Part shown: piece after piece, positions 8,501 to 59,716 of the stretch
Layout: each line of letters starts with the position of its first letter
Position numbering within the stretch: the first letter of the stretch is position 1
DNA from: an uncultured Bacteroidota bacterium
Lineage (GTDB): Bacteria; Bacteroidota; Bacteroidia; Bacteroidales; P3
DNA: 64,000 nt
Direction: 5' to 3'
Assembly: GCA_902776365.1 (NCBI GenBank)
Contig: CACYPU010000004.1
Coordinates: 62,001-126,000 of the forward strand
The notes under the pieces: generated by a model
What the model was told of the DNA's origin: nothing
Database searches by the model: none
Seen by the model: the letters and a program-made list of their open reading frames with translations, nothing else
Position numbers and translations under genes: made by a program

Positions 8501-9366
8501 CCATGCACCGGGCTCAGTATTTCTACAAGGAGAACCAGTTGGAGACCACACCGACCTACCTCGACATGCTGGTGCGGTGGGCCATCCGCCGTCAGGACGG
8601 CGCAGCGAGCAACCAGATGAGCATCTTCAGCATGAGCGAGGAGCTGGCCGAAGAGGACCATCCGCCCATTCCCGAGTGTCCGGAGTGGAGCACCATCGAA
8701 CGCTGCCGTGCGGAGAAAGAGGTCATCTCCACCTACCTGAGCGGCCACCCGCTCGACGATTTCAAGTACGAGATGAAGATGTTCACCAATGTCGGGGTGT
8801 CACAGCTGGCGGCATTGGAGCAGTTGACGGGGCGCGAGGTACACTTCGGCGGTATGGTGTCGGGCGTGAAAGGCGGTGTGTCGGCAAAGGGCAACCCCTA
8901 CGGCTCGATGGTCATCGACGACTACTCGGGCAGCTACGAGCTGCGGCTCTTCGACGAGGAATACACCAGCTTCAAGAACTTCTTCATCGACAACACCTTC
9001 GTCTATATACGTGCGCTGGTGCGCAGCAACAGCTACAGGGACAAGAAGACGGGTGCGGAGAAGACCTTCACGCGGCTGAGAATCATCTCGATGTCGCTGC
9101 TGGGCAAGGTAATGGACAAATACACGTCGAAGCTGTCGTTCACGCTGCCGCTGGAGGCGGTGGACGAGGACTTCTGCAAACGGCTCACGCAGCTGGCGCG
9201 CAAACATCGTGGCGACGTGCCGTTGCAGGCCATCGTCGTCGACGCCCCGCGGAACCTGACGCTGACACTCAACACCCCCACCCTCAAGGTGGCGGTGCAC
9301 GACATCCTGTCCGACCTGGAGATGTTGCGCGGTGTCACCTCCGTGCAACCGATATTGAAAAGTTAA
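5566..9366 (+). CDS. dnaE: DNA polymerase III subunit alpha
   Basis: A 1266-residue replicative polymerase of the DnaE1 type. Order of parts: PHP domain at ~1-210 (HLHVHS at 6-11, ALTDHGNMFG near 40), palm with GPGRGSAAGSVVAY near 435-450 and the catalytic Asp pair in PDIDVDFDD near 480-490, a third palm region around MDFLGLKNL near 650, fingers and beta-binding region, and a C-terminal OB fold near 1085-1150. Length is normal for the phylum. The start follows a -7 box by 22 bp and gives the standard PHP N-terminus. Codons favour CTG and GTG, unlike the CTC/GTC-rich genes upstream. A TTAAA-word array directly follows the stop. Confidence 0.97.
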   Translation: MPQFTHLHVHSHYSMLDGMSKIPDLIKKAKKDGMYSMALTDHGNMFGIKDLLDTVAKENKNRAEGEPEFKPIVGTEAYCARRTLYDKDKNFKDINPENGKERVVDRSGYHLILLAKNLKGYHSLCKLASIAYTDGFYDRPRIDHDVLEKYKEGLIVCSACLGGEIPQLIMAGKLEEAEQQVLWFKERFGDDYYIELMRHKTDKPNANYDTYQWQMKVEPELIRLARKHNIKLVATNDAHFVLEEHGDAHDHLICLATQKDYDDPNRLHYTKQEWLKSPEEMAEVFADLPEALENTMEVAAKIETYSIDSDPLMPVFPIPESFGREEDWRQKFTEEDLFNEFTRNEKGEVVMSQEEAEKKIKKLGGYDKLYRIKFEADYLSHLVWEGAHKRYGEELSDEVKERITFELHTIKTMGFPGYFLIVSDYIRAAREELGVSVGPGRGSAAGSVVAYCLWITDLDPLRYDLLFERFLNPDRISLPDIDVDFDDAGRGKVLDWVTHKYGKERVAHIITYGTMATKSSIADVGRVEKIPLNTVNQLKSYIPDRGFPDNVKDEKGKAPKVNLHNCYKYVPELKNIMQDGPDDLRRMLTYAEELEDTNRQIGIHACGVIIGSQDITNVAPVCVINDKESGEDVLVTQYDGHVVENVGLIKMDFLGLKNLTIIKNCVRMVKKRLGVDIDVDHLPLDDELTYKLFCDGNTVGVFQFESAGMQKYLRELQPHVIDDLIAMNALYRPGPMDNIPEFIDRKQGRKPISYDLPVMEKYLKDTYGITVYQEQVMLLSRLLAGFTRGQSDTLRKAMGKKQIDKMNELEVLFYEGGEKNGHPKEVLSKIWEEWKKFASYAFNKSHAACYSWVAYQTAYLKAHYPAEYMAAVMTSAQTDISRVRELMDDCKKIGVEVAAPSVNDSEMDFSVDKDGKIRFGLQAISGMGEAASSVIIAEREKNGTFQDIFDFLKRVDMHSVNKKNMEVLVKAGAFDGIGTMHRAQYFYKENQLETTPTYLDMLVRWAIRRQDGAASNQMSIFSMSEELAEEDHPPIPECPEWSTIERCRAEKEVISTYLSGHPLDDFKYEMKMFTNVGVSQLAALEQLTGREVHFGGMVSGVKGGVSAKGNPYGSMVIDDYSGSYELRLFDEEYTSFKNFFIDNTFVYIRALVRSNSYRDKKTGAEKTFTRLRIISMSLLGKVMDKYTSKLSFTLPLEAVDEDFCKRLTQLARKHRGDVPLQAIVVDAPRNLTLTLNTPTLKVAVHDILSDLEMLRGVTSVQPILKS

Positions 9367-9440
9367 AAGGGGTCGCTTCGCTTAAAAGGTTAAAATGGTT
9401 TAAATGGTTTAAAGGGTTTAAAGGGTTTAAAAGGTCTAGG
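9361..9440. repeat. Intergenic word array (GGTTTAAAN, 9-bp) with TCGCTTCGCTTAAAAGG core
   Basis: The gap between dnaE and the GSCFA gene consists almost wholly of tandem GGTTTAAAT/GGTTTAAAG words (period 9), preceded by a core that recurs exactly at 18753-18774 between atpH and atpA (22 identical bases). Confidence 0.8.
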
Positions 9441-9449
9441 AACAGCTAT

Positions 9450-10388
9450 ATGCAAGAGATTGAGTTTTATACACGGGTGGGAGTGACGGCGATGCCGTTC
9501 GAAATCGACTTTGCCACAGGTATCGTCAGCCTGGGTTCCTGTTTCTCGGACGAGATGGGTGCGCGGCTGCGCGACGGCGGCTTTTTCATAGAGCAGAACC
9601 CCTTCGGGACGCTCTACAATCCCGCCTCCATCGCTTCGGCTTTGCACAGGCTGATGTATGACAAAGAGATAGGCCTTGAGGACCTCGTGGAGCATGAGGG
9701 GTTGTGGCATTCGTGGCACCACCATGGGAGCTTCTCCCGGCCCACGGCGGAGGAGTGCCTCGAGGCCTGCAACAGCCGTCTCCACCAAGCCCACCAGGCG
9801 CTGAAAGAAGCTCATCTGCTGATGATTACCTTCGGCTCGGCGTGGATCTATGCTCTCGCCGAAAGCGGCGAGACCGTAGCCAACTGCCACAAGGTGCCGC
9901 AGGAGAATTTTGTGCGGAGGATGCTGGCGGTGGAGGACATCGTGGCGCTGTGGCGGCCGCTGCTGGAGGAGCTGCATGCCTGCTTCCCGCTGCTGCACGT
10001 GATTTTCACCGTCTCCCCCATCCGCCATATCGGCGATGGGATGCATGGCAACCAATTGAGCAAGAGCACCCTCCTGCTGGCCATCGACGAGCTGACCGAC
10101 AAAGAGTTGCCGCCGCCGAAGCGCAAGAAGAAAGGCGTGAAGGTAGAGGAGTCCGACCATCCCGTCACCGTCTACTTCCCTTCCTACGAGATAGTGATGG
10201 ACGAATTGCGCGACTACCGCTTCTATGGTCCCGACATGGTGCATCCCTCGGACTTGGCCGTCGATGTCGTATGGGACCGCTTCCAGCGCATCACCATGAC
10301 CCCCGCCGTCCGCGACCAGGCCCACTTCAACGCGAAACAGAGGAAGCGGGAGTGCCATATCACAATAAATGAAAGAAAGAATCGTTAA
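9450..10388 (+). CDS. GSCFA-domain protein
   Basis: A 312-residue member of the GSCFA family, which is common in Bacteroidota and has an SGNH-hydrolase-like fold; its substrate is not established. The diagnostic motif appears as LGSCFSDEMG near residue 32, with the downstream NPFGTLYNP and SPIRH blocks typical of the family. Start chosen at 9450 (MQEIEFYTRVGVTAMPFE) because the frame upstream is only a shadow of dnaE. The stop overlaps the ddl start (TAATG). In this phylum GSCFA genes often sit next to cell-wall amino-acid genes such as alr, and here the neighbour is ddl, which hints at an envelope role. Confidence 0.85.
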   Translation: MQEIEFYTRVGVTAMPFEIDFATGIVSLGSCFSDEMGARLRDGGFFIEQNPFGTLYNPASIASALHRLMYDKEIGLEDLVEHEGLWHSWHHHGSFSRPTAEECLEACNSRLHQAHQALKEAHLLMITFGSAWIYALAESGETVANCHKVPQENFVRRMLAVEDIVALWRPLLEELHACFPLLHVIFTVSPIRHIGDGMHGNQLSKSTLLLAIDELTDKELPPPKRKKKGVKVEESDHPVTVYFPSYEIVMDELRDYRFYGPDMVHPSDLAVDVVWDRFQRITMTPAVRDQAHFNAKQRKRECHITINERKNR

Positions 10389-11404
10389 TGATAAAAAAAC
10401 CGAATTTCATGGAGAAGAAAAACATAGCACTTGTCATGGGTGGTTTCAGCGGTGAGCACGACATCAGCATCGCCAGCGGAAATCAGGTCTACGGTCAGCT
10501 CGACCATAATAAATATAATGTATATAAAATTGTGGTGGAGCGTGAAGGGTGGTATTGGCTTGACGGAGAAGAACACCGTCCTGTCGACCGCGGCCACTTC
10601 ACAGTCACAGATAACGGACAGACCGTTCAATTCGACTTGGCTTTCATTATCATTCATGGCAATCCCGGTGAAAACGGCGTCCTGCAGGGCTACTTCGATA
10701 TGTTGGGCATAAAGTACACCACCTGTGGTTTCTACACTTCGGCGCTGACCTTCCAGAAAGGCTATTGCAACCCTGTGGTGAAGAGTTTCGGTGTGGTGAA
10801 AGTGGCCGAGTCGGTGCTGCTGTACGAAGAGCCAGACAAACAGGGAATTGAGGGTCTGTTAGGCAGGCTGAAACTACCTGTTTTTGTTAAGCCGGCCGCC
10901 GGTGGCAGCAGCGTGGCGACCACAAAGGTAAAGACAGGCGACCAACTCCTTCCCGCTATCCGCGAGGCCTTCACCGAAGACCACGCCGTGCTGGTGGAGG
11001 AGTGCATTGTGGGCCGCGAGTTCGACTGCGGTGTGTTCCGCAAGGCCGACGGCGAGTTGCTGGTGTTTCCCATCACCGAGATTATTCCCAAAGGTGGTCA
11101 TGAGTTCTTCGACTATGAAGCCAAATACCAAGGATTTAGCAATGAGGTGACACCTGCCGAGGTTGATGAACGCATCTCAAAGAACATACAGAAAGTGTCC
11201 GGAATTCTCTACGACCGTTTAGGTTGCAAGGGTATAGTGAGGTTCGACTATATCCACGACATGGCCGCCGACGAACTTTACTTCCTCGAAGCCAACACCA
11301 TCCCCGGCCAGAGCGCTGAGAGCATCGTTCCCAAGCAGGCGAAAGCCATGGGCATCAGTCCCGCCGAGCTCTATGAGATGAGCATCCAGGCTGCGTTAAT
11401 TTAG
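10388..11404 (+). CDS. ddl: D-alanine--D-alanine ligase
   Basis: A ligase of the ATP-grasp family that makes D-Ala-D-Ala for peptidoglycan. Visible features are the N-terminal ALVMGGFSGEHDISIASG block, the ATP-grasp strand FVKPAAGGSSVATTKVK near 165-180, and the C-terminal metal/ATP site FLEANTIPGQSAES near 305-318. From 10388 the product is 338 residues; a second ATG at 10409 gives 331 and starts MEKKNIALVMGG, closer to the usual N-terminus. I keep 10388 because it overlaps the upstream stop, but 10409 is equally plausible. An inverted word array and a terminator follow the stop. Confidence 0.93.
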   Translation: MIKKPNFMEKKNIALVMGGFSGEHDISIASGNQVYGQLDHNKYNVYKIVVEREGWYWLDGEEHRPVDRGHFTVTDNGQTVQFDLAFIIIHGNPGENGVLQGYFDMLGIKYTTCGFYTSALTFQKGYCNPVVKSFGVVKVAESVLLYEEPDKQGIEGLLGRLKLPVFVKPAAGGSSVATTKVKTGDQLLPAIREAFTEDHAVLVEECIVGREFDCGVFRKADGELLVFPITEIIPKGGHEFFDYEAKYQGFSNEVTPAEVDERISKNIQKVSGILYDRLGCKGIVRFDYIHDMAADELYFLEANTIPGQSAESIVPKQAKAMGISPAELYEMSIQAALI

Positions 11405-11463
11405 TGGGTAGTTGGTAGTTGGTAGTGTGTAGCATTTGACCCCTGTGCTGCCCACTACCCACT
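11403..11463. repeat. Mirrored word-array element (GGTAGTT) with GTAGCATTTGACCCC core
   Basis: Tandem GGTAGTT heptamers, a core at 11429-11443, then a reverse-complement arm ending CTACCCACT. The outer 10 bp (11403-11412 and 11454-11463) pair perfectly. The core recurs with one change at 20456-20470. Confidence 0.8.
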
Positions 11464-11495
11464 AAAAAAGGAGTTCCGTTGGAACTCCTTTTTTG
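11464..11495. terminator. Bidirectional terminator between ddl and tRNA-Cys
   Basis: The stem AAGGAGTTCC/GGAACTCCTT with a 3-nt loop is flanked by A6 on the left and T6 on the right, so it can end transcripts from both ddl (+) and the tRNA (-). Confidence 0.85.
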
Positions 11496-11625: not shown

Positions 11626-11658
11626 GAATTAAGAATTAAGAATTAAGAATTAAGAATT
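11626..11658. repeat. Tandem AATTAAG heptamer array
   Basis: Four and a half near-perfect copies of a 7-bp word lie between the divergent tRNA-Cys and histidine-kinase promoters. A heptamer array occupies the same position relative to the tRNA-Leu promoter near 59597. Confidence 0.85.
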
Positions 11659-14490: not shown

Positions 14491-16062
14491 ATGCGACATG
14501 AAGTTGATTTCCTAATAGTTGGCTCTGGCATCGCCGGACTTTCCTTTGCCCTCAAGGTGGCTCCCTACGGCAAGGTGTGCATCCTCACCAAGGGAGACGC
14601 CGCCGAAGGCAGCACCCGTTATGCCCAAGGAGGCATTGCTGCCGTGATGTACGACTCGGACTCGTTCGACAAGCATATCCATGACACCTTGGTCGCCGGC
14701 GACGGCATCTGCGACCGCGAGGTGGTGGAAATGACCATCCGCGAGGCCCCCGACCGCATCCGCGAGCTGGTGCAGTATGGCGTGAACTTCGACCGCGAAG
14801 GCAGCGGTGGGCGTTTCGACTTGCACCGCGAAGGCGGACACAGCGAATTCCGCATCCTGCACCACAAGGATAACACCGGAGAGGAGATTGAGCGTGGCCT
14901 GCTGGAAGCCGCCCGCAGCCATCCCAACATCGAAATCAAAGAGCGCCAATTCGCCATCGACATCATCACACAGCACCACCTGGGCCAGAGAGTCACGAAG
15001 CACACGCCCGACATCGAGTGCTATGGCGTCTATGCGTTGGATTGTGACACCAACCGCATCGATACTTATTTAGCGAAGGTGACTTTGCTGGCTACCGGAG
15101 GCATGGGCAACGTCTATTCCACCACCACCACCCCCGTCATCTCCACCGGCGACGGCGTGGCGATGGTGCACCGTGCCCGCGGCGTGCTTAGCGATTTGGA
15201 ATTCATGCAGTTCCACCCCACCTCGCTGTACAACCCCGCCGAGAAGCCCGCCTTCCTCATCACCGAGGCCATGCGTGGCGCCGGAGCCATACTGAAAGAT
15301 CGCGACGGCAAGGAATTCATGCAGAAGTACGACTCACGGTTGTCGTTGGCGCCACGCGACATTGTGGCTCGCGCCATCGACAACGAGATGAAACTCAGCG
15401 GAAAGGACTACCTCTACCTCGACGCCCGCGGCATCGGCCGCAAGCAACTCATCGAGGGATTCCCGACGATTTACGCCAAGTGTCTGAGTATCGGCATCGA
15501 CATCACCCGCGACATGATACCCATCCGTCCGGCGGCGCACTACCAATGTGGCGGCATCAAGGTGGACCGCAACGGCGAGTCTTCCATCCACCACCTCTAT
15601 GCTGCCGGCGAATGTGCCTGCACGGGCCTGCATGGTGGCAACCGCCTGGCCAGCAACTCGTTGCTGGAGGCCGTCGTCTATGCCCACAACGCCGCACAAT
15701 CGGCCATATCAACGTATCAACATATCAACTTATCAACCCACCGTCAGGTGCCCGACTGGAATGCCGAGGGGATGGTGCTCAACGAGGAAATGGTGCTTAT
15801 CACGCAGACCAAACGCGAGTTGCAGGAGATCATGTGGAACTATGTAGGCATCGTCCGCTCGGACCTGCGCCTGCAGCGCGCCTTCGACCGCCTGAACCTC
15901 ATCTTCCGCGAGACCGAAGACCTCTACAACCGCTCCGTCCTCACCGAACCCCTCAGCGAGCTCCGCAACCTCATCGCCTGCGCCTACCTCATCATCAAGA
16001 TGGCACGCGCCCGCCGCGAAAACGTAGGCCTGCACTACTCGCTCGACCTGCTGGAGAAATAG
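14491..16062 (+). CDS. nadB: L-aspartate oxidase
   Basis: A 523-residue flavoprotein that oxidises L-aspartate to iminoaspartate, the first step of de novo NAD synthesis. Motifs: FAD dinucleotide fold IVGSGIAGLSFAL at 9-21, STRYAQGGIAAV near 40-51, EFMQFHPTSLYNP near 235, and the FAD-binding AAGECACTGLHGGNRLASNS near 370-390. C-terminal helical domain ~415-520 is present. Right after the last FAD motif there is an in-frame insertion AISTYQHINLSTHRQ encoded by four ATCAACNT octamers. nadA and nadC are not adjacent. A two-component pair lies upstream. Confidence 0.95.
   Translation: MRHEVDFLIVGSGIAGLSFALKVAPYGKVCILTKGDAAEGSTRYAQGGIAAVMYDSDSFDKHIHDTLVAGDGICDREVVEMTIREAPDRIRELVQYGVNFDREGSGGRFDLHREGGHSEFRILHHKDNTGEEIERGLLEAARSHPNIEIKERQFAIDIITQHHLGQRVTKHTPDIECYGVYALDCDTNRIDTYLAKVTLLATGGMGNVYSTTTTPVISTGDGVAMVHRARGVLSDLEFMQFHPTSLYNPAEKPAFLITEAMRGAGAILKDRDGKEFMQKYDSRLSLAPRDIVARAIDNEMKLSGKDYLYLDARGIGRKQLIEGFPTIYAKCLSIGIDITRDMIPIRPAAHYQCGGIKVDRNGESSIHHLYAAGECACTGLHGGNRLASNSLLEAVVYAHNAAQSAISTYQHINLSTHRQVPDWNAEGMVLNEEMVLITQTKRELQEIMWNYVGIVRSDLRLQRAFDRLNLIFRETEDLYNRSVLTEPLSELRNLIACAYLIIKMARARRENVGLHYSLDLLEK
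15706..15739. repeat. In-gene tandem octamer array (ATCAACNT) in nadB
   Basis: Four consecutive 8-bp words lie in frame between the FAD-binding domain and the C-terminal helical domain of NadB. Confidence 0.8.
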
Positions 16063-17237: not shown

Positions 17238-17492
<255 letters not shown>

Positions 17493-17539: not shown

Positions 17540-17640
17540 AAGTAAAGGTTAAAGGTTAAAGGTTAAGGGTTAAAGAAATTGTCGCCATGCACCGTTGCGC
17601 AAGCATCGTTAAACATTAACCGCTAACCGTTAAACATTAT
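17540..17640. repeat. Mirrored word array (GGTTAAA ... GTTAAAC/ATTAACC) between atpE and atpF
   Basis: Left arm: four GGTTAAA-like heptamers. Right arm (17607-17640): TTAAACATTAACCGCTAACC-type words of complementary sense. Core ~17576-17606. The whole gap apart from the GC hairpin is made of this element. Confidence 0.75.
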
Positions 17641-18173: not shown

Positions 18174-18731
18174 ATGAACGACTATCGCATCAATATCAGC
18201 TATGCCAAAGCGCTCCTGATGACCGCCGAAGAGAAGAAGGCGGCCGACAGGGTGGCTGAGGACATGCGGCTGGTGAATGTCGTCTGCCAGGAGAACCATG
18301 TGCTCACGGCCGTCTTCGCCAACCCTGTCATCCGCCCCGACCGCAAGGCGGGCATCGTGCGCGACCTGTTCGGTGAACACTGCGGCGAGGTCACCATGGC
18401 ATTCCTTCTCTTCGTGGTGAGGAAGAACCGTTCGGTGAACCTGCGCGGCATCAGCGACGCCTACCTGACCCTCTACCGCGAGAGCCGCGGCATCGTACTC
18501 ACCGAACTGGTGACGCACCAGCCCACTGACGAGAGTGCCGACAAAGCGGTTACCGAGTTGGTGGAGAAATACACCGGCAAGAAAGTGGAACTCCATGCCC
18601 GCACCGACGAAAGAATGCTGGGCGGCTTCAAGCTGGAGTTCAACCACAACATGTACGACGCGCGCCTCCGCACCAAGATTCTCAAGCTCCGCAAGGAGTT
18701 CTCGAAGAATGTCTATGAAAGTAAGTTATGA
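18174..18731 (+). CDS. atpH: ATP synthase F1 subunit delta
   Basis: A 185-residue subunit that joins the peripheral stalk to the F1 head. The N-terminal helical bundle begins YRINISYAKALLMTAEEKKA, and the conserved C-terminal block DERMLGGFKLEFNHNMYDARL near 150 is the usual family signature (GG...D.S). It lies 26 bp after atpF. The gap to atpA holds a mirrored word array. Confidence 0.93.
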   Translation: MNDYRINISYAKALLMTAEEKKAADRVAEDMRLVNVVCQENHVLTAVFANPVIRPDRKAGIVRDLFGEHCGEVTMAFLLFVVRKNRSVNLRGISDAYLTLYRESRGIVLTELVTHQPTDESADKAVTELVEKYTGKKVELHARTDERMLGGFKLEFNHNMYDARLRTKILKLRKEFSKNVYESKL

Positions 18732-18845
18732 AGTTAAAAAGGTTAAAAAGGTTCGCTTCGCTTAAAAGGTTAAAGAGGTGACGGACCCATTACAGAAAAA
18801 ACCCCTTAAACCTTTTAAACCTTTAAAACTTTTAAAACAAAAATT
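18726..18845. repeat. Mirrored word array (GGTTAAAA ... CCTTTTAAA) between atpH and atpA
   Basis: Left arm of GTTAAAAAG-type words, core TCGCTTCGCTTAAAAGG (identical to the one after dnaE), then a right arm of CCTTTTAAA words in reverse-complement sense. The arm ends 8 bp before the atpA start. Confidence 0.8.
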
Positions 18846-18853: not shown

Positions 18854-20431
18854 ATGTCAGATATCAAACCTGCCGAAGTATCGGCAATATTGAAGAAACA
18901 GTTGTCGGATGTAAACCTCGACGTCGAACTCGAGGAGGTGGGCACCGTGCTCACTGTGGGCGACGGCATTGCACGCGTCTACGGCCTCAACAACGCCCAG
19001 AGCGGCGAGCTCGTCGAGTTCACCACCGGCGAGCAGGGCATCGTGCAGAACCTCGAGGAGGACAACGTGGGTGTCGTGATGCTGGGCGAAGTAAGCACCA
19101 TCAATGAAGGCGACACCGTGAAGCGCACCAAGCGCATCGCCTCGCTGCGTGTGGGCGAAGGTCTGCTGGGCCGCGTCATCAACACCATCGGCGAGCCTCT
19201 CGACGGCAAGGGCCCCATCGAGGGCGAACTCTTCGAGATGCCCATCGAGCGCAAGGCCCCCGGCGTCATCTATCGTCAGCCCGTGGAGCAGCCTCTGCAG
19301 ACCGGCATCAAGGCCATCGACTCAATGATTCCCATTGGCCGTGGCCAGCGTGAGCTCATCATCGGCGACCGCCAGACCGGTAAGACCGCCATCGCCATCG
19401 ACACTATCATCAACCAGAAGAACAACTACGACGCCGGCGACCCGGTCTACTGCATTTATGTGGCCTGCGGCCAGAAAGGCTCCACGGTGGCCAATCTCGT
19501 GAAGAACCTCGAGGAAAAGGGCGCTATGGAATACACCATCATCGTGGCCGCCACGGCCAGCGACCCCGCCGCCATGCAGTTCTACGCCCCCTTCGCGGGT
19601 GCCGCCATCGGCGAATATTTCCGCGACACGGGACGTAACGCCCTGGTCATCTACGACGACCTCTCGAAGCAGGCCGTGGCCTACCGCGAGGTCTCGTTGC
19701 TCCTCCGCCGCCCGCCGGGACGTGAGGCTTACCCTGGCGATGTGTTCTACCTCCACAGCCGTCTGTTGGAACGTGCCGCCCGCATCATCCAGAACGACCA
19801 GATCGCAGCCCAGATGAACGACCTGCCTGCCTCACTGAAAGACAAGGTGAAAGGTGGCGGTTCCCTCACCGCACTGCCCATCATCGAGACCCAAGCCGGC
19901 GACGTCTCCGCCTATATCCCCACCAACGTCATCTCGATTACCGATGGCCAGATCTTCCTCGAGACCAACCTCTTCAACAGCGGTGTGCGTCCCGCCATCA
20001 ACGTCGGTATCTCGGTCTCCCGTGTGGGTGGCAAGGCCCAGATCAAGTCCATGAAGAAGATTGCAGGTACCCTGAAAATCGACCAGGCCCAGTACCGCGA
20101 GTTGGAGGCCTTCTCGAAGTTCGGCTCCGACCTCGACGCCGCCACCAAGGCGGTGCTCGACAAAGGTGCCCGCAACGTCGAGGTGCTGAAACAACCGCAG
20201 TACAGCCCCATGCCCGTCGAAGAGCAGGTGGCCATCATCTTCTGCGGCACCAACGGCCTGCTGCAGAAAGTGCCCATCGACAAGGTGCGCGGCTTCGAGA
20301 AAGAGTTTATCTTCATGATGCGCAACGAGCACAGCGACATCCTCGCCAACCTCCGCGCCGGCAAACTGGTCGACAGCGACCTGGCCACCATGAAGAGCGT
20401 CGCCCTCGACCTGGCAGAACGATACAAATAG
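18854..20431 (+). CDS. atpA: ATP synthase F1 subunit alpha
   Basis: A 525-residue non-catalytic nucleotide-binding subunit of F1. Walker A is [13 protein letters not shown] near 170-182, the alpha signature [20 protein letters not shown] lies near 285-305, and the C-terminal helical domain runs from ~380. No truncation or missing key residue was seen. It is followed by an 83-bp gap filled by a mirrored word element, then atpG. Confidence 0.97.
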
Positions 20432-20504
20432 TGTGTAGTGGGTAGTGTATAGTGGGTAGCATCTGACCCCAATACTACACACTACCAACTACCAACTACC
20501 AACT
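20430..20504. repeat. Mirrored word-array element with GTAGCATCTGACCCC core between atpA and atpG
   Basis: Left arm of GTGGGTAGTGTATA words, core at 20456-20470, right arm of CTACCAA heptamers; GTGTGTAGT and ACTACACAC pair. This is the second copy of the element found after ddl at 11403, with the core differing at one base. Confidence 0.82.
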
Positions 20505-21458: not shown

Positions 21459-23711
21459 ATGAAAAGATATTTTTTATCCATATTGTTGCTGCTGTGCTTC
21501 CCTGCCGTGATGCAGGCCAAGCCTGTCGACAAGGCTGTCGCCGGCCAGGTGGCCAGCCAGGTGTTGAAAAAGCAGGTCGTCAACGCCACGCCCGCGGACT
21601 TCACCGAATGCTATCTCTTCATCGGTGCCGACGGCAAAGGATTTGCCCTGGTTTCGGCCGACGACTGTGTGCGCCCCCTGCTGGCCTATTCCATTGACGG
21701 CACATTCGATGCCGACCACATGCCCGCCCATGTGGCTGCTTGGATTGACGGCTACCAACGTGAGATAGCCTCCGTGGTGGATGCCGGCATCGCACCCTCT
21801 CCCGAGGTGCAGTCCCTGTGGGAGAACGTCTGTGCCCACAAGAGCAGCAATGCCGTGGAGCCCTTGCTCACCACCCGTTGGAATCAAAGTCCCTTCTACA
21901 ACAGCTTCTGTCCCTACGACACTACCTACTCCGCCCACGCTGTCACTGGCTGCATAGCCACGGCCATGGCGCAGATTATGCGGTACTGGGAGTGGCCGGT
22001 CGTAGGTTGGAACAGCCATGCCTACACCCACCCAACCTATGGGGAACTGTCGGCCAACTTTGGCAACACCCTCTACCGCTGGGACCTGATGCCCGACACC
22101 CTGAATGCCCTCTGCGACAGCACGGAAATCAATGCCGTGGCCACCCTGATGTACCATGCCGGTGTGGCTGTCGAGATGAACTACAGCCCCATTAGTAGCG
22201 GAGCCGCCGCCATCACCCATGGAGGTCTTGACTTCCCCTGTGCCGAGAATGCCTTGAAGACCTACTTCCGCTATAACCCCATGCTTTCCGGTATCAGCAA
22301 GGCCTCTTTCAGCGATGCCGTATGGGATTCCATGTTGCGCGCCGAGTTGGACTACACCCGTCCAGTACTCTATACCGGTAGTCATCCTTCCCTTGGCGGA
22401 CATGCTTTCGTGCTCGATGGCTACGACACCCTAGGCATGTTCCATGTCAACTGGGGCTGGGGAGGCGGTTACGACGCCTATTATACCATCGACTCGCTCT
22501 CGCCCGGTGCCGGCAGTATGGGTGGCACTCCCATCTACACGTTCAACACCCAGAACACCGGCCTCTTCTATGTGCATCCCATGGCGATTACTTCCGATAC
22601 GGTGGTCAATATCGACATCGCCGTCAACAACCCCGACTGGGGAACTGTCGAGGGCACCGGCACCTACCCTCTCTACGACACCGCCAACATCATCCCCCAT
22701 GCTGCCGAAGGCTATCGATACCTGCGCATGTGCAACGGCTGGAACAAAATGCCGTTATCCTTCTTGGCCGTCAACGACATGCAGGACTCCGTCTTCTTTG
22801 AACGCATCGAAGGCGACACCGTGGGCTACTGCAGCGACCTACCTGTCACTGCCTGGCGCGACGACTATGGTGCCACCACCGAATGGGGCATCCGCATCCC
22901 GACCATCATGCGCCGGTCCCGCCAGCTCACCGCCGTGCAGCTATATGCCTATATAGGAGGAAACTATACCATGAACATCTACCAGGGCGACTCCATCGAC
23001 GGTGCCACGCCGGTCTACACGGACCAATACTACATCACCGACGACGAAGCGGGTTGGAACACCCTACGTCTCGACAGCGTGCTCACCTTCTACCACTCAC
23101 AGACCATCTGGATTACCTTCAGCATCACTGCCGACGAAAGTAGATATCCTGCCAGCTTCTCTTCTTTCTGCGGCAACAGCGACGGTAGCTGGTACCACCT
23201 GCCCGATGGATGGCAGCCCTATGACCGACTGGGAGTGTATAACACCTGGATGATACGCGCCATCTTCGATCCCCGCGACCGCTTCCATGTGGCCGCCTCG
23301 CCCAACGACATCCACTTCGGCGATGTTACCGGCATGGGATACTATGCCCCCGGCGACACCATCACCCTCAACGCCATCCCTCACAACGGCTACCAATTTC
23401 AAAGTTGGGGCAACGGCAGCATCGAAAATCCCCTGCACTTTGTCCTCACCTGCGACACCACCTTCATAGCCTACTTCGTGTCCATCACCGGCATCGAGGA
23501 AATAGATAATTCAGAATTGAGAATTGATATTTCCGGCCTCGACCTCAAGGTGGAGAACCCCACCGGCCGCTCCCTCGACCTCTATGACATCCAAGGCCGC
23601 CGCCTCGCCACCTCCAATCTTTCAATTTTCAATTTTCAATTTTCAATTCCCGGTGTCTACCTCCTGAAAACGGAAGGTCTACCTGCACGTAAAATAGTAG
23701 TAATTAAATAA
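21459..23711 (+). CDS. C10 family cysteine protease with T9SS sorting domain (first of tandem pair)
   Basis: A 750-residue secreted protease related to streptopain and PrtT. After a signal peptide (~1-20) comes the Spi-type pro/inhibitor domain (~20-120, FIGADGKGFALVSADDCVRP). The catalytic domain has Cys165 in AVTGCIATAMAQIM and His315 in GGHAFVLDGYDTLG, with the NWGWGG strand after it. Beta-rich domains follow (~390-660), then a C-terminal type-A sorting module (SGLDLKVENPTGRSLDLYDI to PGVYLLKTEGLPARKIVVIK). The sorting module is bracketed by AT-rich word arrays. The next gene is a paralogue 29 bp downstream. Confidence 0.92.
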   Translation: MKRYFLSILLLLCFPAVMQAKPVDKAVAGQVASQVLKKQVVNATPADFTECYLFIGADGKGFALVSADDCVRPLLAYSIDGTFDADHMPAHVAAWIDGYQREIASVVDAGIAPSPEVQSLWENVCAHKSSNAVEPLLTTRWNQSPFYNSFCPYDTTYSAHAVTGCIATAMAQIMRYWEWPVVGWNSHAYTHPTYGELSANFGNTLYRWDLMPDTLNALCDSTEINAVATLMYHAGVAVEMNYSPISSGAAAITHGGLDFPCAENALKTYFRYNPMLSGISKASFSDAVWDSMLRAELDYTRPVLYTGSHPSLGGHAFVLDGYDTLGMFHVNWGWGGGYDAYYTIDSLSPGAGSMGGTPIYTFNTQNTGLFYVHPMAITSDTVVNIDIAVNNPDWGTVEGTGTYPLYDTANIIPHAAEGYRYLRMCNGWNKMPLSFLAVNDMQDSVFFERIEGDTVGYCSDLPVTAWRDDYGATTEWGIRIPTIMRRSRQLTAVQLYAYIGGNYTMNIYQGDSIDGATPVYTDQYYITDDEAGWNTLRLDSVLTFYHSQTIWITFSITADESRYPASFSSFCGNSDGSWYHLPDGWQPYDRLGVYNTWMIRAIFDPRDRFHVAASPNDIHFGDVTGMGYYAPGDTITLNAIPHNGYQFQSWGNGSIENPLHFVLTCDTTFIAYFVSITGIEEIDNSELRIDISGLDLKVENPTGRSLDLYDIQGRRLATSNLSIFNFQFSIPGVYLLKTEGLPARKIVVIK
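23501..23652. repeat. AT-rich word arrays flanking the T9SS sorting module of the first C10 gene
   Basis: Left array of AATTGAG/AATTCAG words (23505-23530) and right array of TTTTCAA heptamers (23620-23648). Both are in frame, encoding NSELRID and LSIFNFQFSI. The ~90 bp between them encodes the core of the sorting domain. Confidence 0.78.
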
Positions 23712-23740: not shown

Positions 23741-26017
23741 ATGCATCTGAAAAAACTCATCCTGACGACTCTGCTCCTGCTTGTCGCTGGCGTGACCGGA
23801 GCCAAGCCTGTCGACCCCTCGGTGGCACGCCGTGTCGCCGAGAACTTGCTACACAAGTCCGTTATCAACGCCACACCTGCCGACTTCTTGCAATGCTACC
23901 TCTTCGCCGGTGCCGACGGCAAAGGCTTTGTCCTCGTCGCCTCCGACGACTGCGTCCGCCCCATCCTCGCCTACTCCCACGACGGCCAATTCTTCCCAAA
24001 TGACTCAAGCAATCAAGCAATCGAGCAATCAAACCTCCCCCAGCACATCGCCCACTGGATCAACGCCTACCAAATCAATATTGCCGCCCTCATCGAAGCC
24101 GGTGCCGTGGCCTCGCCCAAAGTTCAGGCCGAGTGGCAGAGCCTCCTCAACAATAAATACCACCGTGTGCGCGACAACGCTGTCGAGCCACTCCTCACCA
24201 CCCGCTGGAACCAAGGCTACCCCTACAACCTGCAGTGCCCCTATAGCACCGCCGACAGCGCCTACAGCGTCACCGGCTGCGTGGCCACCGCCACAGCACA
24301 GGTGATGAAATACTGGAATCATCCCGCCGTGGGACGTGGTTCGCACTCCTATAGTATCCCTGGTTTCGGCACCCTGTCGGCAGTCTTCGACACCACCCAC
24401 TACGACTGGACACACATGCCCGACAGCCCCGACGGGCTCTCCACCGACCAGGAACGCAACGCTGTGGCCCAGCTCATGTATCACATTGGCGTGGCCGTGG
24501 AGATGAGCTACAGTCCCCAAAGCAGCGGCGCTTTTGTGGCCTCCGACGGCAACACCTCGATGGCCTCGTCCGAGAACGCCCTGAAGAACTATTTCCGCTA
24601 CAACCAGGCCCTCTTCTCCGCCGCCAAGGCCGACCACAACGACAGCGAATGGGACGCCCTACTCACCTCCGAACTCGACGTCTCGCGCCCTATGGTCATC
24701 TCCGGTCACGACAACTCCGGTGGCCATGCCTTTGTCCTCGACGGCTACGACACCCTCGGCTTCTTCCATGTTAACTGGGGCTGGGGCGGTTACTGCGACG
24801 GCTACTACACCCTCGACTCCCTCAACCCCGACGGCAGCGGCATCGGCGGCAACGCCACCAACGGCTACAACAACGACAACAAGGTGCTCCTGCACGTCTA
24901 TCCCGCCTCCGAGAATCCTTCTGTCACCGTCAGCGTGGCCTCTGCCAACCCGCTGCAGGGCACCGCCTCCGGTGGCGGCACCTTCTCACCCTATGCCCAG
25001 AACACCTCCCTTTTGGCCACCGCAACCGAGGGTCACCGTTTCACCTCCTGGAAGAGTGGCTGCCATTACAACCCCTTCCGCTTCTCACCCAACACCGACA
25101 TCTCCGACACTGCACTCTTCGCCCCCCTCGGCGGCGACACCCTCAGCTACTGCTACGGGAACAACAAAGGTCTTTGGGGCAGCTTTGAACACTTCCCCCT
25201 CGAATGGGGTATCCGTCTGCCCGCCAGCACCATAGCGCCGCATCGTCAACTCGAGAAAGTACAGCTCTACTGTGTCTCCGAGGCTGACTACACCATCAAT
25301 ATCTACTCCGGCAACGGACTCGAGCGCCTGCTCTCCTCCACCAGCTATTCCTCTGGCTTTTGGGGATGGCATACCATCCACCTCACCAATCCCGTGCCTC
25401 TCTACGACACCCTGCCCATTTGGGTAGTCGTCTCCTGTGGCACCTACACCAACCCTGCCTCCTACTCCAGCTATTCCGGCAACCCCGACGGCTGCTGGTT
25501 CAAGCGCAACGGAACCACATGGGGACAGGTCACCGAAGGCGGAGAATACCTCTCTTGGATGCTCCGAGCCCTCCTCGGCCCGTTGCAGCCTGTCGATATC
25601 GACGTGCAGTCCAGCGACCCCGAGAAAGGCACCGTCAGCGGCTCCGGCTCCTACTTCCCCGGCGACACCGCCATCCTCCTCGCCACTCCTGCCCCGGGCT
25701 ACCGCTTCGCGGGATGGAGCACCGGCGACACCGACAACCCGCTCTACTTCCGCGTCACCTCCCCCAGCTCCATCATCGGCTCCTTCCTACCCGCCGCCGG
25801 CATCGAAGAAATTGAAAATTCAAAATTGAAAATTGAAATCTCCGGTCTCTACCTCCAGGTGGAGAACCACACCGGCCGCCCCTTTGACCTCTACGACATC
25901 ACCGGCCGCCACCTCGCCACCTCTCACCTATCATCTTTCACCTTTCACCTCCCCACTCCCGGCGTCTACCTCCTCCGCTCCGGCTCCACCGTCCAGAAAA
26001 TCGTAGCAATCAAGTAA
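23741..26017 (+). CDS. C10 family cysteine protease with T9SS sorting domain (second of tandem pair)
   Basis: A 758-residue paralogue of the preceding gene. It has a signal peptide, Spi-type prodomain (ENLLHKSVINATPADFLQCY), catalytic Cys180 in VTGCVATATAQVM, His329 in GGHAFVLDGYDTLG and the NWGWGG strand, then beta domains. A repeat-like VDIDVQSSDPEKGTVSGSGS block precedes the type-A sorting module (SGLYLQVENHTGRPFDLYDI to GVYLLRSGSTVQKIVAIK). The prodomain contains SSNQAIEQSNLPQ, encoded by CAAGCAAT octamers (24002-24035), and the sorting module is again flanked by word arrays. No terminator separates the pair, so they may be co-transcribed. Confidence 0.92.
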   Translation: MHLKKLILTTLLLLVAGVTGAKPVDPSVARRVAENLLHKSVINATPADFLQCYLFAGADGKGFVLVASDDCVRPILAYSHDGQFFPNDSSNQAIEQSNLPQHIAHWINAYQINIAALIEAGAVASPKVQAEWQSLLNNKYHRVRDNAVEPLLTTRWNQGYPYNLQCPYSTADSAYSVTGCVATATAQVMKYWNHPAVGRGSHSYSIPGFGTLSAVFDTTHYDWTHMPDSPDGLSTDQERNAVAQLMYHIGVAVEMSYSPQSSGAFVASDGNTSMASSENALKNYFRYNQALFSAAKADHNDSEWDALLTSELDVSRPMVISGHDNSGGHAFVLDGYDTLGFFHVNWGWGGYCDGYYTLDSLNPDGSGIGGNATNGYNNDNKVLLHVYPASENPSVTVSVASANPLQGTASGGGTFSPYAQNTSLLATATEGHRFTSWKSGCHYNPFRFSPNTDISDTALFAPLGGDTLSYCYGNNKGLWGSFEHFPLEWGIRLPASTIAPHRQLEKVQLYCVSEADYTINIYSGNGLERLLSSTSYSSGFWGWHTIHLTNPVPLYDTLPIWVVVSCGTYTNPASYSSYSGNPDGCWFKRNGTTWGQVTEGGEYLSWMLRALLGPLQPVDIDVQSSDPEKGTVSGSGSYFPGDTAILLATPAPGYRFAGWSTGDTDNPLYFRVTSPSSIIGSFLPAAGIEEIENSKLKIEISGLYLQVENHTGRPFDLYDITGRHLATSHLSSFTFHLPTPGVYLLRSGSTVQKIVAIK
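24002..24035. repeat. In-gene tandem octamer array (CAAGCAAT) in second C10 gene
   Basis: Three and a half imperfect octamers lie in frame in the prodomain. The first C10 paralogue lacks the corresponding residues, having DADHMPAHVAAW at this place. Confidence 0.8.
25808..25953. repeat. Word arrays flanking the T9SS sorting module of the second C10 gene
   Basis: Left array of AAAATTGAA-type words (25808-25838) and right array of TTTCACC heptamers (25922-25952), in frame. The left word resembles that of the first paralogue, whereas the right arm uses a different word (TTTCACC instead of TTTTCAA). Confidence 0.78.
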
Positions 26018-30666: not shown

Positions 30667-30755
30667 TTGTCCGTTCGTTGTACGATAGTTGTACGATACT
30701 TGTACGATGATTTATCGTACAAGTATCGTACAACTATCGTACAAATAACGTACAA
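30667..30755. repeat. Large hairpin of TTGTACGATA words (31-bp perfect stem)
   Basis: 30678-30708 and 30714-30744 are exact reverse complements (31 bp) around the 5-nt loop GATTT. Pairing continues outwards to 30667/30755 with three mismatches. Each arm is three 11-bp-spaced copies of TTGTACGAT. It lies between the OmpA terminator and the rpsA promoter. Confidence 0.92.
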
Positions 30756-40691: not shown

Positions 40692-42464
40692 TTAGTGTTC
40701 AGTGTTTTTTAGGCGTATTTGCTTGGTTTCGATGGCCGTGCCGCCGCGATAGGTGAGGCGCTCTGTGCGCAATTTCTTCTCACGCGTCAGGTATTCATAG
40801 GCAGCCTTGGCTTCGTCGGTCTTGGGGCACTCGAGGGCCACATGCACCCGTGGATGCTCGATGAGCCAGGTTGCCAGAGCATCAAGAACACGCTGGTCGC
40901 CGAGGTCCATATTGGAGACTGTGTCCCTGACCTGTATGTAAATATGATGCAAGTCGCGCGCCTTGCCACAGCGGATGGTGGGCAGATAGCCCTCGACGGC
41001 GAAGGTGACGACATTGGTGTTCTTCTCGGAGAGCATCAGCAGTGTGTCGCGCGGACCGCCAGGCAAGCCTTTCTCTGTCTCCATCTTGATTTCGCATAGT
41101 CGCATAGGCTCGGGACGTGCGGCGGGATAGAGGTCGAAATAGAGGATATCCTTGCTGCGCGAGGAAGAGACTCGGCCGGGGAAGTAAGCATGGAGGCCGT
41201 CGGGAGTGACGCCGAAGGAGAGGTTGTCGTCTTCGGAGTTGATGGGGAGTCCCAGGTTGGTGGGATAGGCGTTGTCGCCATCGGCGAGGTCGATGAAATA
41301 GACATCGTAGCCGCCGAAGCCCTGCCAGCCGTCGGAGACGAAATAGAGCGTGTGGCCATCGGCATGCAGGAAGGGGAATTTCTCGTTGCCCGTAGTGTTG
41401 ACACGGGAGCCGAGGTTCTCGGGACGGCTCCAGTCGCCATTGGGCAGACGGTGGCAGCGCCAGAGGTCGGAGCCACCCTGACCACCCTGCCGATTGGAGG
41501 CAAAGAGGAGCCAGCGCCCGTCGGCCGACACCGAGGGCTGCGACTCCCACGTGCGATCGCCGTTGATGCCGTTGCCCAGTCTCTCCACTTTCCACTTCCC
41601 ACTTTCATTTTTCGCACAAAAGATGTCGCTATTGCTTCCCTCCATGCGGGCGAAATAAAGTTCTTTGCCGTCGGCGGTGATGCTCACAGCCCCCTCGGAA
41701 GCCCCTTGGTTGAAAGGTGCCGGCAGCTCGTGGCCGCCGTCGAAGGTGCTGTCCTTGCTGTTCCAGTCGCTATAGAAAAGCCTCCACGTGGTTTTCTCGG
41801 TAGTGGAGGTGTAGAAACTGGTGCGGTCGTGCTTGGCGGGCAGCTCGCGCAGGTAGTAGCAACGCTGTCCGTCGGGGGTAATATAGGGGAGGTCTTCGTT
41901 GCGCTTCGAACTCACGCCACGCAGGGGCTCAGGGTCGAAAGGCACACGGTGCAGCTCGGCGTCGGCGAGGAACTGTGACCAGTGGAGGTAGGCCGAGGCC
42001 TCCTCATAGACGGCCGTCCACTCCCTCCGGTCGCTGCCGTTGGCCAGCTGGAAGTAGCGGTCGAACTCCGCCGTGGCCTCCTCATAGCGCTCGTCGGTAT
42101 AGTGTATCATGCCCATGTAGTAGTGAGCCAAAGCGTTGGGGTAGTCGGGATCGAGTTCGATGCACTTGGTAAAATAGCGTCGTATGCCAGTAATATTAAA
42201 GCCGTTATGTACAGACAGCATGCCCAGCCAAAACTGGGGGTCGGCGGCTTTGGGGTTGCGCTGCGCGACGCGTCGCATCAACTTCGAGGCCTCGCCGTAA
42301 TACTGCTTGCCATAAAGTTCCAAAGCTTGGTCGTAGGTCTTCTGGTCGGCCGCCTTCACGCTGACAGTGCTCTGAGCCTGCAAAGTGAGGGGGAAAAGAA
42401 GTAGCAAGAGTGCCAGGAAGTGCCAGGAGTGGGAAGTGCAGGACAATAGCATCATTTTACGCAT
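40692..42464 (-). CDS. TPR and PD40 beta-propeller protein, PorE-like
   Basis: A 590-residue exported protein. After the signal peptide come TPRs (~45-150, EASKLMRRVAQRNPKAADPQ, NALAHYYMGMIHYTDERYEE) and a six-bladed-type propeller with PD40 motifs (SITADGKELYFARM, SVSADGRWLLFASNRQGGQG, HADGHTLYFVSDGWQGFGGYD, GVTPDGLHAYFPGR). The C-terminus (LATWLIEHPRVHVALECPKT) looks like an OmpA domain that has lost its GHTD motif. The arrangement recalls PorE of the type IX system. Start 42464 (MRKMMLLSC) is chosen; 42455 is possible, and the longer frame starts inside a word array. The signal peptide itself is encoded by repeat words. Confidence 0.78.
   Translation of the reverse strand: MRKMMLLSCTSHSWHFLALLLLLFPLTLQAQSTVSVKAADQKTYDQALELYGKQYYGEASKLMRRVAQRNPKAADPQFWLGMLSVHNGFNITGIRRYFTKCIELDPDYPNALAHYYMGMIHYTDERYEEATAEFDRYFQLANGSDRREWTAVYEEASAYLHWSQFLADAELHRVPFDPEPLRGVSSKRNEDLPYITPDGQRCYYLRELPAKHDRTSFYTSTTEKTTWRLFYSDWNSKDSTFDGGHELPAPFNQGASEGAVSITADGKELYFARMEGSNSDIFCAKNESGKWKVERLGNGINGDRTWESQPSVSADGRWLLFASNRQGGQGGSDLWRCHRLPNGDWSRPENLGSRVNTTGNEKFPFLHADGHTLYFVSDGWQGFGGYDVYFIDLADGDNAYPTNLGLPINSEDDNLSFGVTPDGLHAYFPGRVSSSRSKDILYFDLYPAARPEPMRLCEIKMETEKGLPGGPRDTLLMLSEKNTNVVTFAVEGYLPTIRCGKARDLHHIYIQVRDTVSNMDLGDQRVLDALATWLIEHPRVHVALECPKTDEAKAAYEYLTREKKLRTERLTYRGGTAIETKQIRLKNTEH
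41572..41607. repeat. In-gene word array (CCACTTTC/CCACTTCC) in the PD40 protein
   Basis: Three to four imperfect words in frame, encoding NESGKWKVERLG on the minus strand, between two propeller blades. Confidence 0.6.
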
Positions 42465-42507
42465 TTGTCTCGCACTCCTTGCACTCCTAGCACTCCCTTT
42501 GCACTCC
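42405..42507. repeat. Mirrored word array (GTGCCAGGA ... GCACTCCTT) at the 5' end of the PD40 gene
   Basis: Left arm at 42408-42443 (AGTGCCAGGA words), core ~42444-42468 and right arm at 42469-42507 (GCACTCCTT words, period 9). The left arm codes for the signal peptide and the right arm is the untranslated leader. Confidence 0.78.
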
Positions 42508-45146: not shown

Positions 45147-45289
45147 TTCTGGGGGAGTGCTAGGAAGTGCAAGGGTGTGCAGAGGAGTGCAAGACAAATG
45201 ATTTGTTAAATAAAGAAGTGCAAGACAAAAGCCTGTCGTTGCTATTGTCTTGCACTCCCTAGCACTCCTCTGCACTCCCCTTGAATTCC
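45147..45289. repeat. Mirrored word array (GGAGTGCAAGAC ... GTCTTGCACTCC) between convergent genes
   Basis: Left arm of GGAGTGC/GAAGTGC words (45153-45196 and 45219-45230), right arm of GCACTCC words (45247-45281). AGTGCAAGACAA (45220-45231) pairs with TTGTCTTGCACT. The word is the same as in the array at 42405-42507, 2.7 kb away. No T-tract terminator is seen here, so the hairpin may serve that purpose. Confidence 0.82.
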
Positions 45290-58292: not shown

Positions 58293-58300
58293 AAATTGTT

Positions 58301-59134
58301 ATGAAACGCTTTGCACTCATCGGACGTCACCTTCAGCACTCATACTCACAACGTTGGTTTGAGGAACTCTTCGCACGCCTGGGCTTGGAGGACCATAGCT
58401 ACGAGCTGAAAGAGATGCCGACCTTGGATGGTCTGCGCGAGTGGGTGCAGACAGAGCACATCAGCGGCTTCAACGTCACGGTGCCCTACAAACAGGAAAT
58501 CATACCTCATCTCGACGCAATGGACGAGACAGCCACCGCCATCGGCGCCGTCAACTGCGTCACCGTAGAGAGAGTGTCCAAGCTACAAAGTGACCAAGTA
58601 TCTGAGTCGCTCAGCCACTCAGCCATCAGACTTGTTGGCCACAACACCGACGCCCCTGCCTTCCGCGACACTCTCTCATCATTCATCACTCATCATTCGT
58701 CACTTATCACTCAATCCTACATCCTCGGCACCGGCGGAGCCGCACGGGCGGTAGCCTATGCGCTGGGGCAACTCGGCATCCCCTACACCTTCGTCTCCCG
58801 CCACCCTGAGAAGTGGGCTGTGGCCAGTAATCAGTGGTCAGTGATAGGCTACAACCAACTTTTCACCTCTCACCTTTCACCTTTCACCTTAATTGTCAAC
58901 GCCACACCCGTCGGCATGTACCCCGCCGTCGATAAAACACCTCTGGACCTCACTAATTTTCACTTTTCACTTTTCACTTTTCACTTTTATGATTTAATCT
59001 ACAACCCTTCCCCCACCCTGCTGATGCGCGAGGCTGCCGCCTGTGGGGCACAAGTAAAAGACGGCCTGGAGATGCTACACTGCCAGGCCGAACTCAGTTG
59101 GGAACTATTCCGCTCCACTACAAACTTTTCCTAA
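58301..59134 (+). CDS. aroE: Shikimate dehydrogenase with four repeat-encoded insertions
   Basis: A 277-residue enzyme reducing 3-dehydroshikimate to shikimate with NADPH. The catalytic Lys is in SGFNVTVPYKQEI near 50-60, GAVNCVTVER near 83, the substrate Asp in GHNTDAPAF near 112, and the nucleotide loop GTGGAARAVAYALG near 146. Start at 58301 follows the promoter. It is ~30 residues longer than usual. The extra residues are low-complexity (SSFITHHSSLITQS, AVASNQWSVIGYNQ, LFTSHLSPFTL, FHFSLFTFHFYD) and each is encoded by a tandem word array. All lie in loops between domains or strands, so activity may be kept. A terminator follows. Confidence 0.93.
   Translation: MKRFALIGRHLQHSYSQRWFEELFARLGLEDHSYELKEMPTLDGLREWVQTEHISGFNVTVPYKQEIIPHLDAMDETATAIGAVNCVTVERVSKLQSDQVSESLSHSAIRLVGHNTDAPAFRDTLSSFITHHSSLITQSYILGTGGAARAVAYALGQLGIPYTFVSRHPEKWAVASNQWSVIGYNQLFTSHLSPFTLIVNATPVGMYPAVDKTPLDLTNFHFSLFTFHFYDLIYNPSPTLLMREAAACGAQVKDGLEMLHCQAELSWELFRSTTNFS
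58670..58990. repeat. Four in-gene word arrays in aroE (TCATCAC, AGTGGTC-type, TTTCACC, TTTTCAC)
   Basis: Arrays at 58670-58717 (TCATCAC words, seven copies), 58822-58848, 58860-58890 (TTTCACC, four copies) and 58957-58990 (TTTTCAC, five copies). All are in frame; conserved enzyme motifs lie between them. Confidence 0.88.
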
Positions 59135-59180
59135 AATACAATCCGATTTTTACAGCTTTTCTTTGACAATACACAAAAAA

Positions 59181-59209: not shown

Positions 59210-59211
59210 GG

Positions 59212-59293
<82 letters not shown>

Positions 59294-59376
59294 TGGTAGA
59301 GATTAGTTAATAGATAAGAGTTTATAGATAATAGTTTAACTATGAACTTTTAATTGTTATCTCTTAACTTCATCAG

Positions 59377-59459: not shown

Positions 59460-59551
59460 TGCTTTCATCGAGAGATTCTCTCTCGCTCAAGGAAAAGTTC
59501 ACTCGCTTACGCTCGTGCTCTTTTGCTCCCTTTTTTCTCTCGAAAGCGGGT

Positions 59552-59560
59552 GCAAAAGTA
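59552..59560 (-). promoter_or_regulatory. Promoter -7 box TACTTTTGC for the tRNA-Leu pair
   Basis: Minus-strand box 92 bp upstream of tRNA-Leu (GAG), preceded by GGTTG and a TTTTGCCA block shared with the tRNA-Cys promoter. Confidence 0.72.
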
Positions 59561-59595
59561 CAACCATTTTTTGAATTGGCAAAACTTTTTTTATT

Positions 59596-59716
59596 CGAAA
59601 ATGAAAAATTGAAAATTGAAAATTGATTGTCAGCGTATTATAATTGTAAAAATTATTTACGCTCGTGCATTTTCATGCTGCAAATTTCAATTTTCAATTT
59701 TCAATTTTCAATTTTT
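59596..59716. repeat. Mirrored heptamer array (GAAAATT ... AATTTTC)
   Basis: Left arm of GAAAATT heptamers (59597-59626) and right arm of AATTTTC heptamers (59685-59715) around an ~58-bp core with TTACGCTCGTGC. The right arm reaches the stop codon of the large minus-strand gene. Confidence 0.85.

Follow-up and report, generated by a model that had tools for sequence, protein, structure and literature searches.

Mirrored word arrays recur throughout a 64,000-nucleotide stretch of DNA (the window) from an uncultured Bacteroidales bacterium, which spans positions 62,001 to 126,000 of contig CACYPU010000004.1 (G000:C4:62001-126000 in our notation) in a genome of 2.23 Mb. Each has a tandem array of one short word, a core, and an array of the complementary word, and on balance we regard them as copies of small (about 80–130 bp), non-coding, palindromic dispersed families whose ends are tandem arrays of 7–11 nt words, non-autonomous and akin to miniature inverted-repeat transposable elements (MITEs) or repetitive extragenic palindromes (REPs). 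First, copies with the same word at different loci align across most of their length. Secondly, the same cores recur under different words. Thirdly, one of the words is nearly private to its species, and the two arms of one element are matched no further than the likeness within a word family. The relatives of the AtpA protein are from uncultured Bacteroidales, several with rumen, rectum or faeces in their titles, the top match being RUG153 at 98%; the closest relative compared, G031 (which contains L052, RUG153), has about 81% identity across 49 kb of aligned window DNA.

Tandem words with periods of 6–12 were sought in 464 kb of the window genome (the window plus twenty 20-kb stretches, together about 21% of the genome), and 146 arrays were found, whereas a shuffled version of the same 464 kb, in which dinucleotides were preserved approximately, contained none. 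Cyanobacteria have heptamer short tandemly repeated repetitive (STRR) sequences, and here too units of 7 nt are repeated in tandem between genes at numerous loci, 76 of the 146 arrays having period 7. A reverse-complement partner (match score of at least 26, within 150 bp of the array) accompanies 39 of the 146, against 3 when the words are reversed, 3 when complemented, 10 on the same strand and 0.95 at random places; same-period arrays borrowed from other sites gave 7.6, a control that is inflated because words recur among sites. An earlier note made from the window alone had held that the plan recurs beyond coincidence and had proposed a search of this kind against shuffled sequence, and the counts bear it out. 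Independent slippage with pairing by chance would account for single-arm arrays, which are common, genes included, and heptanucleotides are reportedly the commonest class in most genomes (an excerpt of PMC4679880, citing earlier work); with 39 reverse-complement partners where the two composition-matched controls give 3 each, one word at 17 loci, and cores that are shared, this explanation is nonetheless highly improbable.

The eight mirrored sites that had been named in the window are all present, at the positions given or a few bases off, and all fold better as single-stranded DNA than their shuffles (200 approximate dinucleotide shuffles per site), with z scores of -4.1 at 11403, -4.1 at 17540, -2.0 at 18726 (where 7 of the 200 shuffles fold equally well), -2.6 at 20430, -12.5 at 30667, -5.3 at 42405, -7.9 at 45147 and -7.1 at 59596. 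A stricter automatic test is passed by the sites at 17540, 18726, 30667, 42405 and 59596, and by a sixth window element, intragenic, at 23501-23648; the sites at 11403, 20430 and 45147 fail it, their mirroring being recognised by eye and by folding only. The single-arm sites at 2021 (z +0.7), 9361 (-0.8) and 11626 (+1.1) do carry the arrays described for them and fold no better than shuffles. The AT-richness and intergenic location ascribed to the sites are correct in part: many sites are intergenic, but the words GGAGTGC and TAGTGGG are not AT-rich, and the 42405 site extends across the beginning of a gene on the minus strand.

In 1.5 Mb from seven related genomes we called 78 mirrored elements of about 40-190 bp, present in five of the seven genomes and 27 of them in the window genome, and these fall into class A (period 11, 25 elements) and class B (periods 7-10, 53 elements). 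Elements with the same word at different loci share 70-96% identity over 52-129 bp among the alignments listed (window genome, G031 and G002), and many of these alignments end near the element edge despite 40 nt of flank in the query; inverted-repeat arms and non-coding copies at different loci are also the features by which MITEs are recognised. For the class A pattern GTACGATANNTGTACGATA there are 31 matches at 17 loci in the window genome, a single match in one of 58 other genomes of the genus, and none in 300 kb of G031, which is outside the 58-genome set. In the 17 copies of this GTACGATA family the 11-bp units flank a 9-bp centre, which is ATGATTTAT or its complement in 14, and the unit variants are specific to their rank (words of equal rank have an identity of 0.80, words of unequal rank 0.74). 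Short core sequences recur as well: GCTG.CGC lies beside arrays of different words 23 times on the inner side and once on the outer (369 arrays), and TGCGnnAGC, a motif derived by enumeration over the same elements on which it was counted, is in 13 of the 50 cores from class B, where 0.76 would be expected. At single-arm intergenic arrays GCGnnAGC is inside 18 times and outside twice (n=156), and a number of single arms therefore have the look of an element of which one half is present. The GGAGTG family has a distinct core, with GACAAATG and GACAATAG at its two sides.

The relationship between the arms of one element bears on how the pairing arises. In hairpin-templated copying, template switching would write one arm from the other and slippage would yield the tandem words, consistent with arms that are mutually reverse-complementary and with words that depend on the site; own arms should then exceed the arms of different elements in likeness. 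In the GTACGATA family own partners are instead less alike than shuffled ones (identity 0.810 and 0.833, permutation lower tail 0.0013), and in class B, where 38 of 53 elements could be tested, the own partner ranks at a mean percentile of 0.47 when set among the arms that share its word and genome (p 0.45). The common vocabulary and cores moreover require spread among loci, so that we find hairpin copying, whose footprint the earlier note had suspected, improbable. For class A only, the elements could be protein-binding arrays in which four 11-bp units face four others, phased with the DNA turn, with a target word predicted to depend on the species. This is an unlikely reading that agrees with the 11-bp spacing and the 4+4 order in 17 copies, with the different 11-bp words of G002, G009, G012, G014 and G016 (among the matches listed), and with the avoidance of perfect pairing by partner arms, although the binding protein and the helical phasing are both putative.

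If the arrays are dispersed families as we favour, elements would be copied as units into new places by a putative machinery and most intragenic insertions would be removed by selection, so that class B elements would gather immediately behind stop codons and class A elements at a greater distance. The two arms would then independently gain, lose and replace words by slippage or recombination, and the pairing would thus be inherited in the manner of terminal inverted repeats and not made on site. We speculate, with low confidence, that such a DNA-spreading system may combine a short constant core with interchangeable inward-facing arrays whose vocabulary is specific to the species and changes, the 11-bp words perhaps being helically phased binding sites that change together with an enzyme or partner.

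Class B has 36 of 53 elements between co-oriented genes, 10 intragenic, 4 between convergent and 3 between divergent genes (gene calls throughout are our own). The median distance from the upstream stop codon is 4 nt, and 26 of the 40 elements with a defined stop lie at -10 to +15 nt; for class A the median distance past the stop is 37 nt. As to the transcription ends that the earlier note gave as a possible role, a separate terminator-like hairpin is found near 11 of 25 class A elements, 4 of 43 class B elements, 22 of 150 random long intergenic places, and 3 of 12 additional GTACGATA loci. An intrinsic terminator is a GC-rich hairpin with a T run immediately behind it where a transcript ends. 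The 5′ arm is purine-rich in 35 class B elements and pyrimidine-rich in 3, and pyrimidine-rich in all 20 of the 25 class A elements that were scored. We considered the purine-rich 5′ arm as a sign of transcription orientation and rejected it: such a palindrome looks the same from either strand, and its arm polarity is thus a property of the element and shows no link to transcription. Among array pairs no more than 130 bp apart, those with reverse-complement words are arranged purine-then-pyrimidine in 18 cases and in the opposite order in 1, and those with unrelated words (n=28) in 14 and 4 cases, with like polarity in 10; at least two of these 14 (L008:249 and L166:17638) are related words below the threshold. 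It is suggestive that the plan may be two inward-facing arrays around a core, which pair whenever their words match. In several class B elements the 3′ arm and core seem, by eye, to be coding for the signal-peptide-like leader of the next gene (L182:1454-1570, L134:14465-14567 and L020:223-338).

This placement invites a reading as RNA hairpins between operon genes, kept by selection for mRNA stability or translation coupling, with the words free to vary while the arms pair. The 36 of 53 class B elements between co-oriented genes, at a median of 4 nt from the stop, accord with this, and so do the gaps between atpA and atpG: where these are at least 50 nt (23 cases), 15 surpass 199 or more of their 200 shuffles in pairing; their words are many and unrelated, and some are plain hairpins free of arrays. 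The gap is, however, shorter than 50 nt in 54 of 77 genomes (the window and 76 of 80 relatives that were measurable), 10 class B elements are intragenic, and some adjoining arrays of unrelated words that cannot pair share the layout. Selection on RNA pairing also leaves no mark on the type of mismatch in 36 class B elements, where on the mRNA strand G.U mismatches (19) do not outnumber A.C mismatches (29), a weak test, so that the role in RNA stability entertained by the earlier note gains no support there. We judge this account unlikely overall, but certain class B copies may act at the RNA level.

At orthologous junctions in relatives, the sites of the window are array-free or carry the same or a different word. 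The 42405 site has GGAGTG in the window, paired TTTTCAA arrays in G002 and G009, and none in G031 and G012. The 17540 site has GGTTAAA in the window, a hairpin with an 8-bp word in G031, a AAAAGTTG hairpin in G002, and none in G009 and G015. The 18731..18838 site is a short array-free junction in G031, G002 and G012, and at the 2020..2050 site AAAATGA is also found in G002, with long hairpins of another word in G031 and G012. At the 20429..20504 site relatives have other words or nothing. Unrelated, unpaired repeats at orthologous sites had been offered as a sign that the shared architecture is coincidental; relatives instead often have other words that still pair, although some sites are empty or do not pair. 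Ten genome pairs yielded 302 pairs of orthologous junctions, among which an array is present in both in 24, in one only in 42 and 36, and in neither in 200, an odds ratio for reuse of 3.2 with a nominal p of 0.0004, the 302 pairs sharing genomes and hence not being independent; at 16 of the 24 shared junctions no array is alike between the two species. A few hundred bases before the start of a gene that by eye is atpD-like, mirrored array included, are near-identical between G031 (L176:10350-10800) and G002 (L181:12250-12650), and with nearby genes diverging more this looks like recent interspecies exchange.

The load of arrays varies strongly among genomes, with 31.5 per 100 kb in the window genome, 38.0 in G031, 57.0 in G002, 48.3 in G014, 15.3 in G009, 18.9 in G012 and 5.5 in G016, against 3.0, 1.7, 0 and 0 in four genomes of other families (40-100 kb each) and none in 100 kb of E. 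coli K-12. Mirroring is clear in G002 (reverse-complement partners for 40 of 170 arrays, against 8 reversed and 6 complemented) and in G012 (6 of 16, against 0 and 0), and weaker in G031 (18 of 114, against 6 and 4); in G009 partners accompany 2 of 15 arrays. The TTTTCAA pattern TTTTCAATTTTCAATTTTCA is present in 32 of 59 genomes of the genus, with 0 to 65 matches per genome, and in 11 of 198 genomes sampled across the order, including that of the window. Another family was sampled in 72 kb of G179 stretches picked around TTTTCAA matches; there are 34 arrays, which have their own core, GAAGTGCGGAGTCACT, and are not mirrored by the automatic test (3 reverse-complement partners, against 9 reversed and 17 on the same strand).

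Two protein families were considered as the mover. Among the 59 genus genomes, 40 have a match to Y1_Tnp, the family of REP-associated tyrosine transposases (RAYTs), and 25 to the reverse transcriptase family RVT_1; among the 13 with at least eight TTTTCAA matches, Y1_Tnp is absent from 4 and RVT_1 from 9. The sole Y1_Tnp match of the window genome (L001:1408-2127, a frame of 239 aa covering profile positions 40-121) may be without its start, and no word array is seen near it in 3.2 kb inspected by eye. The check for a RAYT proposed by the earlier note thus turned out negative, and with counts unrelated to the TTTTCAA load a RAYT or a reverse transcriptase was rejected as the mover, these being the only two families considered.

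A number of points weigh against the elements being dispersed families that move. Across 59 genomes the number of TTTTCAA matches is not followed by that of Y1_Tnp (rho 0.19) or of RVT_1 (rho -0.10), the two families tested. By the automatic test none of the arrays is mirrored in G014 (0/29) or G016 (0/11). Word arrays are the sole shared part of some aligned copies, and the end-to-end likeness is therefore partly owed to the common word. The inward bias of GCGnnAGC is not significant at intragenic single arms (14 inside and 9 outside, n=130), and 163 of 391 arrays of period 7-10 are inside called genes, mostly single-arm, which plain slippage fits equally well. At junctions, the reuse table for mirrored arrays only (5, 27, 17 and 253) is not significant (p 0.07), and target duplication is not evident by eye between occupied and array-free junctions at about 76-81% identity, the nearest relative compared being about 81% identical in aligned DNA.

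Within the window, four of the class B elements lie in its left half. The element at 11402..11464 has a TAGTTGG/TAGTGGG arm (11402-11432), the core CATTTGACCCCTGTG at 11433-11447 and the reverse-complement arm at 11448-11464, and its core is similar to that at 20460-20474. The next three are near genes given atp names, assigned from AtpA plus gene order. At 17543..17639 a GGTTAAA arm (17543-17573), a core that includes TTGCGCAAGCATCG (17574-17608) and the second arm (17609-17639) sit between called genes ending at 17492 and starting at 17647 (atpE/atpF by order). The 18731..18838 element, with arms AAAAAGGTT and AAACCTTTT and with TTCGCTTCGCTT inside, is immediately 3′ of a stop codon and 5′ of atpA, and that at 20429..20504, with a TAGTGGG arm (20429-20459), the core CATCTGACCCCAATA and a CTACCAA arm (20475-20504), is between atpA (stop codon 20429-20431) and atpG. 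The mirrored pair at 23501..23648 (+ strand) has GAATTGA and TTTTCAA arms about 94 bp apart inside the gene at 21510-23711; TTTTCAA/AAATTGA arrays at 23615-23648 and 25809-25838 lie in similar ends of two neighbouring genes (78.5% over 205 bp), which look by eye like secretion-type C-terminal domains.

The class A element at 30667..30755 is one of the 17 loci of the GTACGATA family, with arms of 11-bp words at 30667-30708 and 30714-30755 around GATTT. Two class B elements of the GGAGTG family follow. That at 42408..42507 covers the 5′ end of a gene on the minus strand and has a minus-strand GACAAATG in its core, the ATG of which begins a 590-codon frame with the same end as the called gene; that at 45153..45279 is shortly 3′ of a + strand gene with its stop at 45146. 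Donation of a start codon by GACAAATG was rejected as a general role of the family, frames of at least 60 codons following in 3 of 11 copies and in 272 of 1295 occurrences of any ACAAATG. The class B element at 59597..59715, with a GAAAATT arm (59597-59626) and a TTTTCAA arm (59681-59715), is immediately 3′ of the stop of the minus-strand gene at 59716-63999. Single-arm arrays are those of AAAATGA at a gene junction (2020..2050), of GGTTTAAA (9382..9435) and of GAATTAA (11626..11658). Some genes also carry arrays: that at 58301-59134, which by eye we take to be shikimate dehydrogenase-like, has three different in-frame arrays (CTCATCA at 58675, TTTCACC at 58861 and TTTTCAC at 58957), and the gene at 14491-16062 has a short tandem CATATCAA at 15705-15737, where each of seven relatives has a different sequence, several of them other short repeats.

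Tandem heptamers are known from various unconnected bacteria, but how a single word reaches many places has had no explanation, and here many heptamer arrays are the arms of dispersed palindromes with common cores, the same junction having different words among related species. A word that depends on the species offers a handle on how the seven-letter repeats of bacteria arise and spread, and genomes of the genus vary so strongly in load (0 to 65 TTTTCAA matches) that comparing them is a way to look for the gene responsible. A warning also follows, that hairpins between operon genes and odd leader or loop insertions among these bacteria may be debris left by repeats instead of designed signals. 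In the literature searched, which covers few subscription journals, no prior description was found beyond the relatives named below, each compared as far as excerpts of its report go.

Stems made of repeated heptamers have their closest precedent in P6b, a stem of the Nostoc trnL intron (PMC4476775), which is built on one of two 7-nt motifs (TDNGATT or NNTGAGT) that repeatedly and independently replace each other, giving very different sequences of similar structure; P6b is, however, a single locus in a structured RNA, whereas the Bacteroidales elements have many loci, many words, cores and dispersed copies. The TAACTGA tandem heptamers of Beggiatoaceae and of some Cyanobacteria and Bacteroidetes (PMC4679880) are likewise intergenic at many places, often beside gene starts, and their mechanism of spread is unexplained there; they favour one word and a single orientation (in that genome 169 sets are direct and one repeat is indirect), in contrast to the many words and mirrored arms here. 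BrickBuilt, an intergenic, non-coding MITE with 19 copies in one strain of Porphyromonas gingivalis (PMC4596501), is likewise from the Bacteroidales and has tandem repeats plus small inverted ends, but it has a single 23-nt array between those ends, whereas here the arrays themselves are the inverted arms. The REP families GTAG and CGTC are short palindromic dispersed repeats, those of CGTC being found in Bacteroidetes among others without a known transposase, and they are 20-40 bp long, carry a tag at one end and lack arms of tandem words (PMC3733652). The elements described here, of about 40-190 bp, have arms of word arrays, a common end tag was not seen among them, and CGTC is within the core in only 9 of the 17 inner-side GCTG.CGC copies listed. 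As these systems are described in the excerpts, none of the four has what distinguishes the Bacteroidales elements, namely word-array arms at many loci with a vocabulary bound to the species.

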